Below are positions 11,701 through 63,313 of a stretch of 64,000 nt of DNA, piece by piece. The translations under genes were made by a program, and so were the position numbers. The notes beneath the pieces are model-generated. The model had not been told where the DNA came from. It saw only the letters and a list, made by a program, of their open reading frames with translations, and did not search any database. Within the stretch, counting starts at the first letter, position 1, and the number at the start of each line of letters is the position of its first letter. This DNA is from Nitrospirota bacterium. GTDB taxonomy: Bacteria; Nitrospirota; Thermodesulfovibrionia; Thermodesulfovibrionales; UBA6898. The stretch covers positions 83,705 through 147,704 of the forward strand of contig JACRLQ010000008.1 of the NCBI GenBank assembly GCA_016215155.1. The letters run 5' to 3'.

Positions 11701-11864
11701 GTTTAATACCGATGCTGCTTGCAGGCGGCGCCGGCTCCGAAATTCAAAAGCCGCTTGCAACGGTGGTTGTCGGCGGCTTGATTACGTCGACTCTGCTTAC
11801 GCTATTGATTATTCCTTCGGTTTACGGCTGGTTTGAAAAGAGAGAGGTCGAGGAGGAAATGTAA
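8760..11864 (+). CDS. Heavy-metal efflux RND transporter (CusA/CzcA family)
   Basis: 1034 aa, the usual RND length, with two sets of transmembrane helices and two large periplasmic loops. The N-terminus (PIDAFPDVTN, then EIERNVTYPIEMAMRGLP) is diagnostic of the heavy-metal (HME) subfamily. The TM4 proton-relay region reads GMIIDTTIIQVEN with Asp412. This differs from the DFG...DGA signature of CzcA and the AMVDAAIVMIEN of CusA, so the substrate (Cu/Ag versus Zn/Co/Cd/Ni) cannot be assigned. A moderate Shine-Dalgarno (GGGAG) precedes the ATG. The TAA stop is the first base set of a palindromic repeat. Confidence 0.93.
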   Translation: MLEKLIEYTLKQKGMVIFLSLLIMTIGFYSYMKLPIDAFPDVTNIKVEVVSHADGLSAAEIERNVTYPIEMAMRGLPDIEQMRSVTKFGLSIVTIVFKDNVDIYFARQLVFERLAEAREKVPKGVEIAMGPIGTAMGEIYQYTLEGKMPEDPLQKKAYLTNLRTIQEWIITPQLKSVAGVNEINSFGGYFKQYQVIVSPEKLLQHAVTVDDVYSAIGSNNENVGGNILERGTDQYIVRGVGLIKDVSDIENIVLKSEHGTPTCVRDVAQVKIGEAVRMGAAMKNGKDECVGGIVMMLRGENSRDVVRRVAEKVKEINENNILPEGLKIAPYYDRSDIVSASVSTVNKALIEGSLLVLIVLYLLLNSIRGSIVVLIALPLSLLGTFIVMKLAGISANLMSLGGLAISIGMIIDTTIIQVENVQRHLSEEGGKHPKLFTVLKAVMEVRKPSIFGELIIALTFIPILSLEGIEGKMFGPLALTVAIALLASLFLSVFVIPVLCLLFLRPQAEKESFIMKRASRLYLPLIEYAMSNKKVILGIAGVFLIASLFLATRLGTEFIPTMDEGSFDMDVSMLPGVSLATSVEVNQRAAEKLKAFDELDIVVARTGQTGIALDTRGTDKTAYVGIFKPKKQWKRDISKEALTNEMRESLESIPGITFGFSQPIQCRIDELVAGTRAQLILKLFGEDIDVLSDKSAEIAKVLSTIKGGTDLAAEKVSGQPYLTVNIDRSRIARYGLNISDVQKVIEIAVAGKSATKFYEENRSFDISVRLPEEKRNSLEAIKNLMITTKTGSNVPLEQLAEVKLIEGPVQISRQDGGRRVGIEMNITGRDIGGFVAEAKQKIKEKVKLPAGYYLTWGGQFENQQRAMKKLMIIGPVAIGLILLLLYVTFRSVRLALLVISNLPFALIGGVFALYISKQYLSVPASVGFVVLFGVAVLNGLVLVSRISQLRDEGLDLREAIRKGSVDRLRPVLMTASIAIFSLIPMLLAGGAGSEIQKPLATVVVGGLITSTLLTLLIIPSVYGWFEKREVEEEM

Positions 11865-11937
11865 CCCCCCAAACCTCCCCTTGACAGGGGAGGCTTAAAG
11901 GCTTCCCCCCTGACAAGGGGGGACTGAGGGGGGTTGG
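11863..11937. repeat. Solo copy of the C-tract/G-tract palindromic repeat
   Basis: AACCCCCC at the left and GGGGGGTTGG at the right enclose two smaller hairpins (CTCCCCTTGACAGGGGAG and CCCCCCTGACAAGGGGGG). It belongs to the arm family that surrounds the DUF559 gene at 59.2-60.1 kb. It overlaps the pump stop codon and ends 32 nt before the PII start, so it could modulate expression of the last operon gene. Confidence 0.8.
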
Positions 11938-11969
11938 TTTGGACTTTAATCAAACATAAGGAGAACAGC

Positions 11970-57585: not shown

Positions 57586-57717
57586 TAGTAAAGATTGACC
57601 CGCAGGCAGCGGTTATTTTTGAGAGTCACTGAAAAAAGTAGCCTGACCCTTTCCTTCTACAAAGTGCCCATGCGTTTTATGCTGCGCGCTAAGTGAAGGA
57701 TGAATGGAGGCAAGAAA

Positions 57718-58407
57718 ATGAAAAAACTAGGTTGGGCGGTTAGCTGGTTATTGGGCGGTTTTTTTCTCCTGAATGGTATTTATATTTTATATAATAGCGA
57801 ACTGATTGATAAGGATCATCTTTCATCAATTCCATCCTTTCTTGCGGCTCTACTTCTGTTGCCACCGGTGCGAAGATTCGTTCACTCAAAGACAAACTAT
57901 AAATTTCCGCTCTATGCGAGAGTAATAGCCATAGTTATTATTTTTATAGTAGCTGTAAAAATCTCAGATAGAAATCATGTCGAATATTTCAATAACAACT
58001 CTGCAAGTATTCTTGCGGAAATAAACGATTTAATTAAAACTGGCTACTACGAGGTTGCTTTATTGAGGACGAAAAAATATGTTACTTCCGGAAATAAAGA
58101 ATTGCTCCATTTTCATAGCATAGCCAAAACTAAGACAGATGAGCTTAATGCAATAAGAAAGAAAAATGAAAGCTCGGAGAAAAGAGATGAAAATTATTCG
58201 TGGGCATCCAAGATAAGCAAAGAAAAATGTAATGAAATTGCAATGATTGGCTTAAATAAAGGTCGTCGGGACAGGGCGGTTGCAATTAGGGACAATAATA
58301 ATATGGATTTTGCGTATTCTTTTTGTGGTGAATGCAGTATTGCTGAAAAGGGTGAAATTGCTACTTGCTACGAAATTGGATACGACAAAGGCTATTACGG
58401 CAGATAA
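57718..58407 (+). CDS. Unknown membrane protein in AT-rich island
   Basis: 229 aa from ATG 57718, chosen because GGAGG lies 8 nt upstream; ATG 57700 is possible. Up to three transmembrane segments in the first 90 residues (WAVSWLLGGFFLLNGIYILY, FLAALLLLPPV, VIAIVIIFIVAVKI), then a charged helical region and a C-terminus with three cysteines (FCGECSIAEKGEIATC). No family recognised. Base composition is clearly more AT-rich than neighbours, suggesting acquisition. Confidence 0.6.
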   Translation: MKKLGWAVSWLLGGFFLLNGIYILYNSELIDKDHLSSIPSFLAALLLLPPVRRFVHSKTNYKFPLYARVIAIVIIFIVAVKISDRNHVEYFNNNSASILAEINDLIKTGYYEVALLRTKKYVTSGNKELLHFHSIAKTKTDELNAIRKKNESSEKRDENYSWASKISKEKCNEIAMIGLNKGRRDRAVAIRDNNNMDFAYSFCGECSIAEKGEIATCYEIGYDKGYYGR

Positions 58408-58487
58408 TAAATCAGCTAAAGTATTTCCTCCGTCGTATTTAGGCTTGTTAAAGCAGTAACATAAGCTGCTAATAATTCCATTGTTGG

Positions 58488-59051
58488 GTGGGAGCTTTGA
58501 ATATAGATGATGCAGAAAAGTATTTTATAGCTCGGATTGAAGAGCTAAGACGAATGTGTTCTGACGGAACACCATGGGTTTTTGTTTGCGCAGCAACCAT
58601 GATTGATTATCTTTCTAAGCTAACAAATGGCGCAGATAAAGGGGGGGATGGGTATAAGGCCTTTATCAGGGACTATATGGCTCAGGTTAGGCCGGAATAT
58701 GCGATGTTTATCTATGATGATGGGAATCAAGATTTACCTGTGCAAATTTATCATATTTTCAGGTGCGGCATAGTCCATAGTTTCAGTTTCATTCCTGATC
58801 AACGCGCTTCTGCAAAAGATGGACGGAAACGATCAATTGTCCTCTCTCACAAGCGAGAAGGGTTAGGGCACATATCAAAATACTCCAGCGCTAATGCTCC
58901 CGATTCATGCAATTTTGTCGCTGAAGATTTCATTGATGATCTCGCAAAAACGATTCACACCGTATTTGCAAAGGCTAAAGCGGATAATAATTTGAAAGAC
59001 AAAATAGAGCTGTGGCTTACACGTTATCCCCCTATAATGGGCAACATATAA
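58488..59051 (+). CDS. Unknown soluble protein in AT-rich island
   Basis: 187 aa, soluble, with no motif I can name. FVCAATMIDYLSKL and FRCGIVHSFSF suggest an all-alpha fold, reminiscent of HEPN-like proteins, but the R-x4-6-H signature is not certain. Start could be GTG 58488 or TTG 58497; GGTGGG lies between. Same AT-rich composition as the previous gene, 80 nt downstream. Confidence 0.5.
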   Translation: MGALNIDDAEKYFIARIEELRRMCSDGTPWVFVCAATMIDYLSKLTNGADKGGDGYKAFIRDYMAQVRPEYAMFIYDDGNQDLPVQIYHIFRCGIVHSFSFIPDQRASAKDGRKRSIVLSHKREGLGHISKYSSANAPDSCNFVAEDFIDDLAKTIHTVFAKAKADNNLKDKIELWLTRYPPIMGNI

Positions 59052-59204
59052 GGTTTTGTGCTAAAGCTATGGGGTTCATAAGAAGGAGACAGCATAGACA
59101 GGTCAGGCTCGTCTAAATGAAATTGATGGATAAGAGATGAGAAGACAGAAAAAATCACAACAAGTGGGGAATTGGCACAAGAAAAATAGCCGGTCCTCTT
59201 TCCC

Positions 59205-59262
59205 TCTGTGCGAGAAGAAGATCCAGGCCGCCCTTGCGCGAGTCTGGGGGGCGGGTGGGTGA
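59205..59262 (+). pseudogene. Tail of a second DUF559 gene
   Basis: This stretch encodes KIQAALARVWGAGG-stop, followed by AAGGCAT. The intact DUF559 gene ends LSARIWGEAE-stop followed by the same AAGGCAT and a matching repeat arm. About 15 of the last 24 sense bases agree. The rest of the gene (59052-59204) is not recognisable. Confidence 0.55.
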
Positions 59263-59452
59263 AAGGCATAAGGCAAAAACCAACCCCCCTCAATCCCCCC
59301 TTATCATGGGGGAAGAAAGAGCGACATCTTGACACCTCATTTGTGTGGTGACGAGAGCGATGGGGCTGAAATACCCACAAGGCAGCAAGAGGGGAGTGTT
59401 GACTCCGCCCTTGTTTCCCCCCTGATAAGGGGGGCTAGGGGGGTTGGCTGTT
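59237..59452. repeat. Left long direct repeat of the DUF559 unit
   Basis: Order: DUF559-tail homology, TGAAAGGCAT, inverted arm at 59280-59315 (CCAACCCCCCTCAATC...GGGGGAAG), spacer with AAGGCAGCAAGAG (59379-59391), forward arm at 59414-59447 (TTTCCCCCCTGATAAGGG...GGTTGG). The two arms are reverse complements of each other. The same order recurs at 59836-60081. Confidence 0.8.
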
Positions 59453-59466
59453 CCGCTGTCGAGGAT

Positions 59467-59838
59467 GTGAAACTTCCCTTCCTTCCCTACAATAAAAACC
59501 TCACCTCACTCGCTCGAAAAAATCGCAAAAATCCCACGAAGACAGAAAGCAAAATGTGGAATGAAGTCCTCAGTGTGCAGAAGTTCTCTGAGTTTAAATT
59601 TCTCCGTCAGAAGCCTCTTGCCGGCTATATCGTTGATTTCTACTGCTCAGCCCTTCGTTTGGTGATTGAAATTGACGGGGACAGCCACGCTGAGATGATC
59701 GCGTACGACGAAGAACGTACAAGAGTTCTGAACGCTTTGGGCCTGACGGTTGTCAGATACACAAACGATGAGGTGTTGAGTAACATCGGGGGCATCTATG
59801 AGAATTTGAGTGCTCGCATTTGGGGCGAGGCGGAGTGA
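59467..59838 (+). CDS. DUF559 (Vsr-like) endonuclease
   Basis: 123 aa from GTG 59467, where the family normally starts (LPYNKNLTSLARKNRKN is the classic opening). The PD-(D/E)xK-like core is visible as KPLAGYIVDFYCSALRLVIE and IDGDSHAEM. A longer ATG-initiated frame at 59329 is translated from repeat DNA and rejected. The gene is bracketed by long direct repeats and adjoins the tail of another DUF559 gene. Family members are single-domain, probably nuclease-active; biological role unknown. Confidence 0.85.
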   Translation: MKLPFLPYNKNLTSLARKNRKNPTKTESKMWNEVLSVQKFSEFKFLRQKPLAGYIVDFYCSALRLVIEIDGDSHAEMIAYDEERTRVLNALGLTVVRYTNDEVLSNIGGIYENLSARIWGEAE

Positions 59839-60081
59839 AAGGCATGGGACAAAACCCAACCCCCGAACAGCCAACCCCCCTCAATCCCCCCTTATCATGG
59901 GGGAAGAAAAAGAGACATGTTGGCACCTCCCCTGACAAGGGGAGGCTGGGAGGGGTTGGCTGTGTCTTTGACGATTTCAGAGAACAACGAGGGTAAAATA
60001 TGACCATAAGGCAGCAAGAGAGAAATCTTGACTCCTTCTTTGATTCCCCCCTGATAAGGGGGGTGAGGGGGGTTGGCTGTT
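59836..60081. repeat. Right long direct repeat of the DUF559 unit
   Basis: Begins at the DUF559 stop (TGAAAGGCAT), then CCAACCCCCCTCAATC arm at 59871-59906, an extra arm at 59924-59959 (CTCCCCTGACAAGGGGAG), AAGGCAGCAAGAG at 60008-60020, and a forward arm at 60044-60076. It repeats the left unit in order and orientation, plus the extra arm. It fills the gap between the DUF559 and EVE genes. Confidence 0.8.
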
Positions 60082-60100
60082 GAGGTCTTGAAAAGTTGCT

Positions 60101-61189: not shown

Positions 61190-63313
61190 ATGGGATATTT
61201 CGGCCTTATAAAAGAAGATTACAGGGCAATCTTCAGGAGGGACCCTGCCGCAAGGGGAGGGCTGGAGGTGATCCTTGCCTATCCGGGGCTTCACGCGATC
61301 GTACTGCACAGGCTCAATCATATGCTATGGAATGCCGGGCTCCCCATAGCGCCGAGGTTGTTTTCGCATATAATAAGGTGCCTGACCGGGATAGAGATCC
61401 ATCCGGCCGCAAAAATAGGGGCGGGTCTAGTTATCGACCACGGCATGGGGGTTGTGATAGGCGAGACCGCAGAGGTAGGTGAAGACTGTCTGCTTTATCA
61501 GGGCGTGACCCTGGGCGGCACAGGCAAAGAGAAGGGCAAAAGGCATCCTACCCTCCGTAACAACGTTGTGGTCGGGGGCGGGGCAAAGATACTCGGCAAT
61601 ATTACCATAGGGAATAACGTCGTGATAGGCGCAAACTCGGTCGTATTGAAATCAGTGCCCGATAACTCCATCTGCGTCGGGGTGCCGGGACGGATAACAA
61701 AAAGAAAGATCATCAGGATGACGACAGAGGAAGGGCTTGTAGAGGTTACCGACTATTTCCCGGACCCTGTGTCGGAGAAGATAAAAGAACTGGAAGGCCG
61801 GATAGAGGAGCTTGCAAAGAGGCTTTCATCCGGAGCAGCCATGAACGAAAGAGGAGGACGGATGAGGATTTATAACACGCTTGCCGGGGAGAAGGAGGAG
61901 TTTATACCGGTTACCCCAGGTCAGGTCAGGATGTATTCATGCGGCATTACGGCCTATGACCACTGCCATATCGGACACGCCCGGTCGGCGATAGTTTTTG
62001 ACGTGATGAGACGGTATATAAAATACAGGGGTTACGACATAACCTACATCAGAAACTTTACGGACATTGACGACAAGATAATAAACCGCGCAAAACAGGA
62101 GGGCATCGCGTGGGATGCGGTGGCGCAGAAGTATATTGATGAGTATTACCGCGACATGGACATGCTCGGGGTCGGGAGGGCAGACGTCGAACCAAGGGCG
62201 ACTGAATATATCGCCGAGATGATAGAGATTGTAAGCGGACTTATCTCAAAGGGATATGCCTACGAATCCGAAGGCAGCGTATATTTTGAGGTCGCGAAGT
62301 TCGGCGGCTACGGCAAGCTCTCAAAAAGGGACCTCGAAGATATGCTGGCAGGCGCCCGCATAGAGGTCAACGAAAGGAAGAAAAACCCGATGGATTTCGC
62401 CCTCTGGAAGTCCTCAAAAGAGGGCGAACCGGCGTGGGAAAGCCCGTGGGGGCCGGGGAGGCCGGGCTGGCATATAGAATGCTCGGCGATGTCCCTTAAA
62501 CATCTGGGTGTGACCTTTGACATACACGGCGGCGGCGCTGACCTGATATTCCCCCATCACGAAAACGAGATCGCGCAGTCGGAGGCCTTCACCGGAAAAC
62601 CGTTCGTCAAATACTGGGTGCATAACGGTTTCATCACAGTTGACAAGGAGAAGATGTCGAAATCACTCGGCAACTTCTTTACGATTAAGGACATCCTCAA
62701 TAAATTTGATTCAGAGCCTGTCAGGTATTTCCTCCTTTCGACCCACTACCGGAGCCCGATAGAGTTTTCGGACGAGCAGTTAAAGGAGGCGGAGGCCTCC
62801 ATAGACAGATACTATACGACTGTGCTCCGGACCAGGGACTTCCTCGCCCAGGCCGTGACGGTCGAGAAATCCGCTCCGGACGAAAAGGTCCTCGAGGACC
62901 TTTTGGGCAGGTTCATCCCCGGCTTCATGGAGGCGATGGACGACGATTTTAATACGGCCCTTGCGATAGGCGGGATATTTGAGCTTATCAGGGTCCTCAA
63001 TAAATATATGGACGGGAAGCCTGCGGGCGCGAAGGCCTCGTCGTTGATAAACAGAGCTCAGGACCTGCTGAAAGAGGCAGGGGGAGTGCTTAATATCTTC
63101 AACCGCACCCCTGAGCAATGGTATAAGGCCCTTATGGTTTCAAAGAATATTTCTTTGACCGAGGCCGACATAGAGGCAAAAATTGCAGACCGCAGGAAGG
63201 CCCGCGCCGACAAGGACTGGACAGCCGCGGACCTGATAAGGAAAGAGCTTGAAGAGAAGGGCATCATTTTGGAGGACAAAAAAGACGGCACGGGTTGGAA
63301 GGTGAAGGTCTGA
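61190..63313 (+). CDS. Serine acetyltransferase - cysteinyl-tRNA synthetase fusion
   Basis: 707 aa in one open frame. Residues 1 to about 195 are a complete CysE (LTGIEIHPAAKIGAGLVIDH, GVTLGGTGKEKGKRHPTL, left-handed beta-helix hexapeptides). Residues 225-707 are a complete CysS: MRIYNTL, YSCGITAYDHCHIGHARS with the zinc Cys and HIGH, FPHHENEIAQSEA, and KMSKSLGN. A linker of about 30 residues joins them. Just before Met225 is GAGGAGGACGG, a strong Shine-Dalgarno, with ATG at 61862, so free CysS could also be made. CysE makes O-acetylserine for cysteine; CysS charges tRNA-Cys. Adjacent cysE-cysS genes occur in Bacillus; fusion is unusual. Confidence 0.9.
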   Translation: MGYFGLIKEDYRAIFRRDPAARGGLEVILAYPGLHAIVLHRLNHMLWNAGLPIAPRLFSHIIRCLTGIEIHPAAKIGAGLVIDHGMGVVIGETAEVGEDCLLYQGVTLGGTGKEKGKRHPTLRNNVVVGGGAKILGNITIGNNVVIGANSVVLKSVPDNSICVGVPGRITKRKIIRMTTEEGLVEVTDYFPDPVSEKIKELEGRIEELAKRLSSGAAMNERGGRMRIYNTLAGEKEEFIPVTPGQVRMYSCGITAYDHCHIGHARSAIVFDVMRRYIKYRGYDITYIRNFTDIDDKIINRAKQEGIAWDAVAQKYIDEYYRDMDMLGVGRADVEPRATEYIAEMIEIVSGLISKGYAYESEGSVYFEVAKFGGYGKLSKRDLEDMLAGARIEVNERKKNPMDFALWKSSKEGEPAWESPWGPGRPGWHIECSAMSLKHLGVTFDIHGGGADLIFPHHENEIAQSEAFTGKPFVKYWVHNGFITVDKEKMSKSLGNFFTIKDILNKFDSEPVRYFLLSTHYRSPIEFSDEQLKEAEASIDRYYTTVLRTRDFLAQAVTVEKSAPDEKVLEDLLGRFIPGFMEAMDDDFNTALAIGGIFELIRVLNKYMDGKPAGAKASSLINRAQDLLKEAGGVLNIFNRTPEQWYKALMVSKNISLTEADIEAKIADRRKARADKDWTAADLIRKELEEKGIILEDKKDGTGWKVKV

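Follow-up and report, generated by a model that had tools for sequence, protein, structure and literature searches.

DUF559 nuclease genes lie between BoxC-type triplex-motif repeats and may form with them a two-part selfish element

Why should one small nuclease gene lie between two repeats built of short palindromic arms, and do gene and arms make up a single mobile unit? The question is raised by a locus in a stretch of 64,000 nucleotides of Nitrospirota DNA (the window, to which the positions below refer), which comes from a genome of 3.4 Mb. The gene (59467..59838, + strand) encodes a DUF559 nuclease of the PD-(D/E)XK type with a length of 123 aa and matches Pfam PF04480 with 109.5 bits against a cut-off of 20.6 (E=1e-31). 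Comparison with relatives suggests that its start is the GTG at 59467, just past an arm.

To the left of the gene, the outer arm (59280..59314, − strand) comprises tail CCAACCCCCC followed by hairpin TCCCCCCTTATCATGGGGGAA, and the inner arm (59415..59453, + strand) comprises hairpin CCCCCCTGATAAGGGGGG followed by tail GGGGGGTTGG, which faces the gene. Both have a triplex tail score of 1.0 (locus L003). The shared word AAGGCAGCAAGAG lies between them at 59379..59391 (+ strand). On the right, three arms were delimited by sequence and triplex tail scoring: a first arm (59870..59905, − strand; tail then hairpin, with the tail facing the gene), an extra arm (59926..59963, + strand; CCTCCCCTGACAAGGGGAGG followed by tail GGGAGGGGTTGG) and a last arm (60044..60081, + strand; hairpin then tail). 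The second copy of the shared word is at 60008..60020 (+ strand), and the + strand of the window contains no copies beyond these two. The original prediction had described two repeats of the same order around one DUF559 gene, composed of C-tract/G-tract arms, their reverse complements and the shared word, with an extra arm in the right repeat; every one of these components was located. The direct repeats fall into three families (78 nt, 86%; 64 nt, 91%; 54 nt, 76%). The flanking layout is far beyond chance, with a reversed-pattern control giving approximately 0 arms per genome.

Upstream of the left arms, the left repeat begins in 14 in-frame codons at 59218..59262 (+ strand; KIQAALARVWGAGG, then stop) that remain from the C-terminal end of another DUF559 gene. 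The intact gene ends in a similar sequence (YENLSARIWGEAE, then stop), and the two make up direct repeat D3 (76% over 54 nt). This fits the decayed second gene that had been proposed. The accompanying proposal, tandem duplication of the whole arm-DUF559-arm unit, is possible as one route among others, with nothing specific in its favour. The ORF list contains no transposase ORF inside the unit. No clean empty site was found at the window locus; in two relatives (G002 and G003) the space from ispF to the EVE gene is taken by a glycogen-phosphorylase-like gene. Divergence between orthologous intergenic regions of the relatives is too great for reading exact junctions or target duplications. The corresponding interval of the window (57586-60100, ispF to EVE-domain gene) holds two ORFs without a Pfam match (57700-58407 and 58488-59051) plus the DUF559 unit. 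Further along, the 707-aa translation of a single ORF (61190-63313) looks by eye like an in-frame fusion of a CysE-like serine acetyltransferase with a CysS-like cysteinyl-tRNA synthetase.

The invariant residues of the DUF559 family (R, E, D and ExDGxxH) are all intact in the aligned window protein, which is therefore probably active. Its structural model (pLDDT 87) was searched with Foldseek and matched 3hrl (a gonococcal DUF559 protein), the catalytic domain of I-Bth0305I (3r3p; E ~1e-4) and, more weakly, Vsr. The 3r3p match groups it with homing-endonuclease catalytic domains. The HUH Y1 tyrosine transposase that marks a RAYT was not found in the window gene, which is a DUF559 gene of Vsr/I-Bth0305I fold.

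Each arm consists of a pyrimidine/purine hairpin and a G-rich tail that mirrors the arm's own 3' stem, and a hairpin with a mirror third strand fits 94 of 109 arms. For scoring, A was read as A or T, as is permitted in a purine-motif triplex. Tails scored 0.90 against their own stem mirrored, compared with 0.77 for the same stem in direct order (p=4e-10) and 0.76 for the stems of other loci (p=7e-15). The tail of the gene-nearest arm points toward the gene in a ratio of 55:7, so the two flanks are inverted. From their mirror symmetry, the arms are predicted to be triplex-forming palindromes.

Hairpins with a stem-mirroring third strand define the BoxC / PIT / intrastrand-triplex motif, and the arms are members of this repeat class. 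BoxC-type repeats have been known for decades, in E. coli since the 1990s. The original prediction knew of no established system of this kind; as regards the arms this has to be withdrawn, as they belong to a motif class already described (Holder et al. 2015, PMC4666352). That study reported 23 motifs in MG1655, including five inverted pairs, found the motif in >260 genomes, demonstrated triplex folding of the E. coli motif in vitro and tied the motifs to genome instability. By its authors' account, mobility functions near the motifs were never found, and neither ycjD (the E. coli DUF559 gene discussed below) nor the word endonuclease appears in its main text (PMC4666352). Our search of the open-access literature, with preprints and most subscription journals outside its scope, returned no paper linking DUF559 or ycjD to triplex repeats.

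Pairing of gene and arms extends well beyond the window. DUF559 genes are present in 28 of the 61 relatives' genomes, and 44/45 strong DUF559 loci have arms no further than 300 bp away, a set that omits one strong match (L023) whose imperfect arms are missed by the strict detector. No arms accompany the matches (L038, L040-L042) in which DUF559 is one domain of a very long ORF. When the scan was widened to many phyla, an arm was found within 250 bp in 68/80 DUF559 loci, and arm density was 3.86/kb near the gene versus 0.08/kb beyond 800 bp, a 47-fold local enrichment. Another listing gave 112/115; since loci already known to lack arms had been excluded from it beforehand, this figure is biased and the 68/80 scan is relied on. 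The genomes used are mostly single species representatives, many of them draft assemblies. One in-gene insertion (L012) sits in a variable linker and gives no evidence either way. C-tract hairpin repeats were also seen near the DUF559 genes of Neisseria gonorrhoeae (L127), the Picosynechococcus plasmid pAQ6 (L128) and Sinorhizobium (L129). As a control, loci of ParE from the same set of genomes had an arm in 1 of 30 cases (Fisher p=2e-18), and the idea that arms flank any small mobile gene was rejected.

Arm abundance was compared between genomes using the pattern CCCCYYYTTN{1,6}AARRRGGGG, which covers part of the arm types only; overlapping matches to one arm were counted separately, so that counts are of matches and not of elements. 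Among the 61 relatives, genomes with an intact DUF559 gene have a median of 20 matches versus 0 in the others (p=1.8e-6; within-family permutation p=5e-5). The same holds for 148 genomes of the phylum (9.5 matches with DUF559 versus 0 without, p=1.4e-13), where at least 5 matches occur in 30/54 genomes with the gene versus 8/94 without it. The harsh correction of deducting four arms per gene leaves p=2.5e-5 overall and 0.07 within families; within genera the association is then not significant among the 148 genomes, in which few genera vary. At the extreme, one genome (G083) has 11 DUF559 matches and 236 arm matches. Two observations had been named in advance as evidence against the prediction, namely arms equally common in genomes without DUF559 and DUF559 genes elsewhere that are never near arms; the genome counts are contrary to the first and the locus scans (44/45 and 68/80) are the opposite of the second.

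Exceptions occur in both directions. Some genomes have DUF559 and zero pattern matches, in part because not every arm type is covered by the pattern. Others are rich in matches without an intact DUF559 gene at the cut-off used (G152, 66; G037, 24; G039, 20), and of these G039 retains a DUF559 fragment. In these three genomes, either the nuclease was lost or another agent moves the arms. The second option is part of a different reading, according to which DUF559 behaves like a homing endonuclease: by cutting at triplex motifs it would insert itself, through break repair, into repeats already there, and the arms would be landing sites distributed by another agent. Arm-rich genomes without the nuclease fit this reading, as does the identity of the nearest solved functional relative, the I-Bth0305I catalytic domain. 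Pre-existing sites would however be expected in genomes without DUF559, and these are mostly armless; nor was a nuclease-free site seen with a single intact arm that the gene interrupts.

The comparison of arms between loci bears on the same reading. Median arm distance is 0.095 for pairs of DUF559 genes of one clade (≥60% identity) in different genomes (n=84 pairs), versus 0.278 for pairs of different clades within one genome (n=38 pairs; p=6e-13, which is indicative as the pairs are non-independent). Arm distance also follows nuclease distance in a Mantel test (p=0.002). Arms therefore travel or descend with the gene and not with the genome, and the notion that they are a property of the host genome was discarded. 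Because, between genomes, arms track the clade of the nuclease, spread into landing sites made by another agent is considered unlikely. Association and co-inheritance of DUF559 and arms extend across phyla. Co-inheritance could also arise by hitch-hiking of the whole unit, which counts against a two-part element: the arms would be termination, insulation or mRNA-structure elements around an often-transferred gene, and DUF559 would have no action on them. Clade tracking would be produced equally by such co-inheritance, and the arms are indeed strong hairpins near gene ends.

Arms located away from the gene argue against hitch-hiking. In the source genome DUF559 is present as three intact genes and one decayed copy, each flanked by its own arm type (CCCTCTCCC at C86, CCTCCCCTT at C22 and C44, CCCCCCT at the window). 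Six further places in this genome have arms but no DUF559 gene, and four of these are clear doublets; the solo doublets have their tails outward. One of them (11861..11952, + strand), with an efflux-pump gene on one side and a P-II-like gene on the other, shares 95% identity over 79 nt with a doublet of a Deltaproteobacterium (L053) that adjoins a DUF559 gene. The window doublet lies far from any DUF559 gene, and the L053 doublet belongs to another phylum. The arm at this place is absent from four of six aligned loci in relatives. Furthermore, termination has no need of a mirror-symmetric tail, and ParE, another small mobile gene, lacks arms. Promoter and terminator tests cited by Holder et al. 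(PMC4666352) reported neither activity for the motifs. With E. coli doublets that are present or absent at orthologous sites (below), these points make hitch-hiking improbable, more so than landing sites. The proposed arrangement of a palindrome family with one Vsr-like nuclease, resembling REP/RAYT, is strongly supported by arms flanking nearly all stand-alone DUF559 genes examined and by dispersed solo copies.

The E. coli K-12 genome contains the same pair. The gene ycjD (1,351,407-1,351,760) is a DUF559 gene, its product has been assigned to the PD-(D/E)XK superfamily, near Vsr (PMC1189080), and motif 9 of Holder et al. (1,351,204-1,351,239) lies 168 bp from it. Two degenerate and one intact BoxC copies were recognised on the 3' side of ycjD and none on the 5' side. 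The ycjD region is present in 3,366/5,426 complete E. coli genomes. In other genomes the eef efflux operon occupies the ycjD site (PMC12817139), for example after sapF in B2 and O157 strains; the sapF locus of these strains was accordingly rejected as a simple empty ycjD site. At sapF-fabI (L130, L131, L216), ycjD and the eef operon are alternatives at one site, and loss of eef might have come with the arrival of the ycjD unit.

For 60 genomes drawn from along the ranking, BoxC places were counted, using as a proxy for ycjD that the best BoxC match is a full ycjD-locus copy. Proxy-positive genomes have 9-26 BoxC places (median 17), and the 25 proxy-negative genomes have 1-25 (median 8), approximately half of them with 1-4 only. 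The larger number in proxy-positive genomes is suggestive only, being phylogenetically confounded. All E. coli phylogroups have some BoxC, including strains without a ycjD-locus copy, as would be expected of landing sites spread by another agent. Individual doublets are present in some strains and absent from others. The full fepB-entC query is spanned in about half of the genomes; others lack ~186 bp containing the doublet, with the junction GTTAA / TAATGC allowing a target duplication of 3 bp at most. At hrpB-mrcB, the doublet is missing from several strains including UTI89 and ~12 bp are replaced. Tails at both loci point inward. The alx-sstT region of E. coli W4 and E08 was excluded as an empty site, as it reflects an internal deletion between arm copies.

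Transposon ends were also considered as carriers. Two copies of one DUF559-arm unit in the source genome (L002:1405-1890 on C22 and L004:985-1325 on C44; 91-94% identity) are bounded by putative ISL3-like inverted ends GGTTCTTCAGGGTTTTGTATGGG / CCCGAAAGAACC. The L002 copy has an 8-bp near-duplication (TAAATAAA/TAAATATA) and the L004 copy has decayed through internal deletion. One relative (G043; L019:1400-1890) likewise has a DUF559 unit between ISL3-like ends (GGTTCATCCGGGTTTTGTGTGG / CCACACAAAAGCCGGAAGAGCC). These loci would fit a cassette that is a passenger of transposons with such ends, the transposons being the true movers. A simple motif scan, however, detected paired ends at just one further locus, arms stand alone at most loci read, and the solo doublets lack such ends. 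Passenger transport is therefore very improbable, and ISL3-like ends, seen at L002, L004 and L019 only, were dismissed as a general carrier.

Since the DUF559 gene is nearly always found between BoxC copies, both are probably parts of one minimal selfish element. We favour this two-part, REP/RAYT-like element with a probability of roughly 0.6. DUF559 would recognise the arm, perhaps after single-stranded DNA has folded into the hairpin or triplex, and would nick or cut at or near it. Repair would then copy the doublet (as in REP/RAYT), or doublets together with the gene (as in homing), into new and mostly intergenic sites, and solo doublets would be non-autonomous copies. The more specific proposal that DUF559 is a structure-specific nuclease for intrastrand-triplex or hairpin DNA, spreading BoxC-type doublets by cutting, is tentative, ranking below the two-part element and above the alternatives.

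BoxC/PIT/triplex repeats are widespread and DUF559 is a common nuclease family. The pairing suggests which enzyme may act on the repeats and which substrate the enzyme may have, and is open to test in E. coli K-12 with ycjD and 23 motifs. If DUF559 does spread BoxC doublets, a new class of minimal mobile element would be defined and an orphan E. coli repeat family explained. Nuclease and palindrome systems of the REP/RAYT type would then have arisen at least twice, from unrelated nucleases, and intrastrand triplex DNA would acquire a biological function, that of a substrate for mobility.

Known systems share parts of this arrangement. RAYT is thought to copy REP sequences into new sites, and a GTAG-type tag is described for REPs. 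Like REP/REPIN-RAYT (REPtron), the arms are short imperfect palindromes, dispersed and mostly intergenic, in inverted doublets; one small single-copy nuclease gene lies between inverted repeat copies, solo copies are scattered elsewhere, and the repeat type matches the nuclease clade. The DUF559 nuclease is however a PD-(D/E)XK enzyme and not an HUH Y1 transposase, and its arms have, besides a pyrimidine/purine hairpin, the third strand of a triplex, and lack a GTAG-type tag. The arms are BoxC / PIT / TM repeats (Holder et al. 2015, PMC4666352) by their hairpin and mirror third strand, inverted pairs and mostly intergenic location, and the E. coli copies are identical to them; no nuclease or mobility gene was linked to BoxC as published. 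The EDxHD homing endonuclease I-Bth0305I and Vsr share the fold of the DUF559 catalytic domain, but DUF559 lies outside introns and inteins and has cognate palindromes alongside, of which many solo copies exist as well. No precise empty target was found, so the gene is not classed with the homing endonucleases. Like MITEs and ISL3-like non-autonomous elements, the arms occur as short non-coding doublets that are polymorphic in presence, and two DUF559 units lie inside ISL3-like ends; unlike in MITEs and IS elements, no constant target duplication was seen for the arms and no DDE transposase in the unit. The DUF559-arm unit would work like REP/RAYT and, having no HUH transposase, is not a member of that family.
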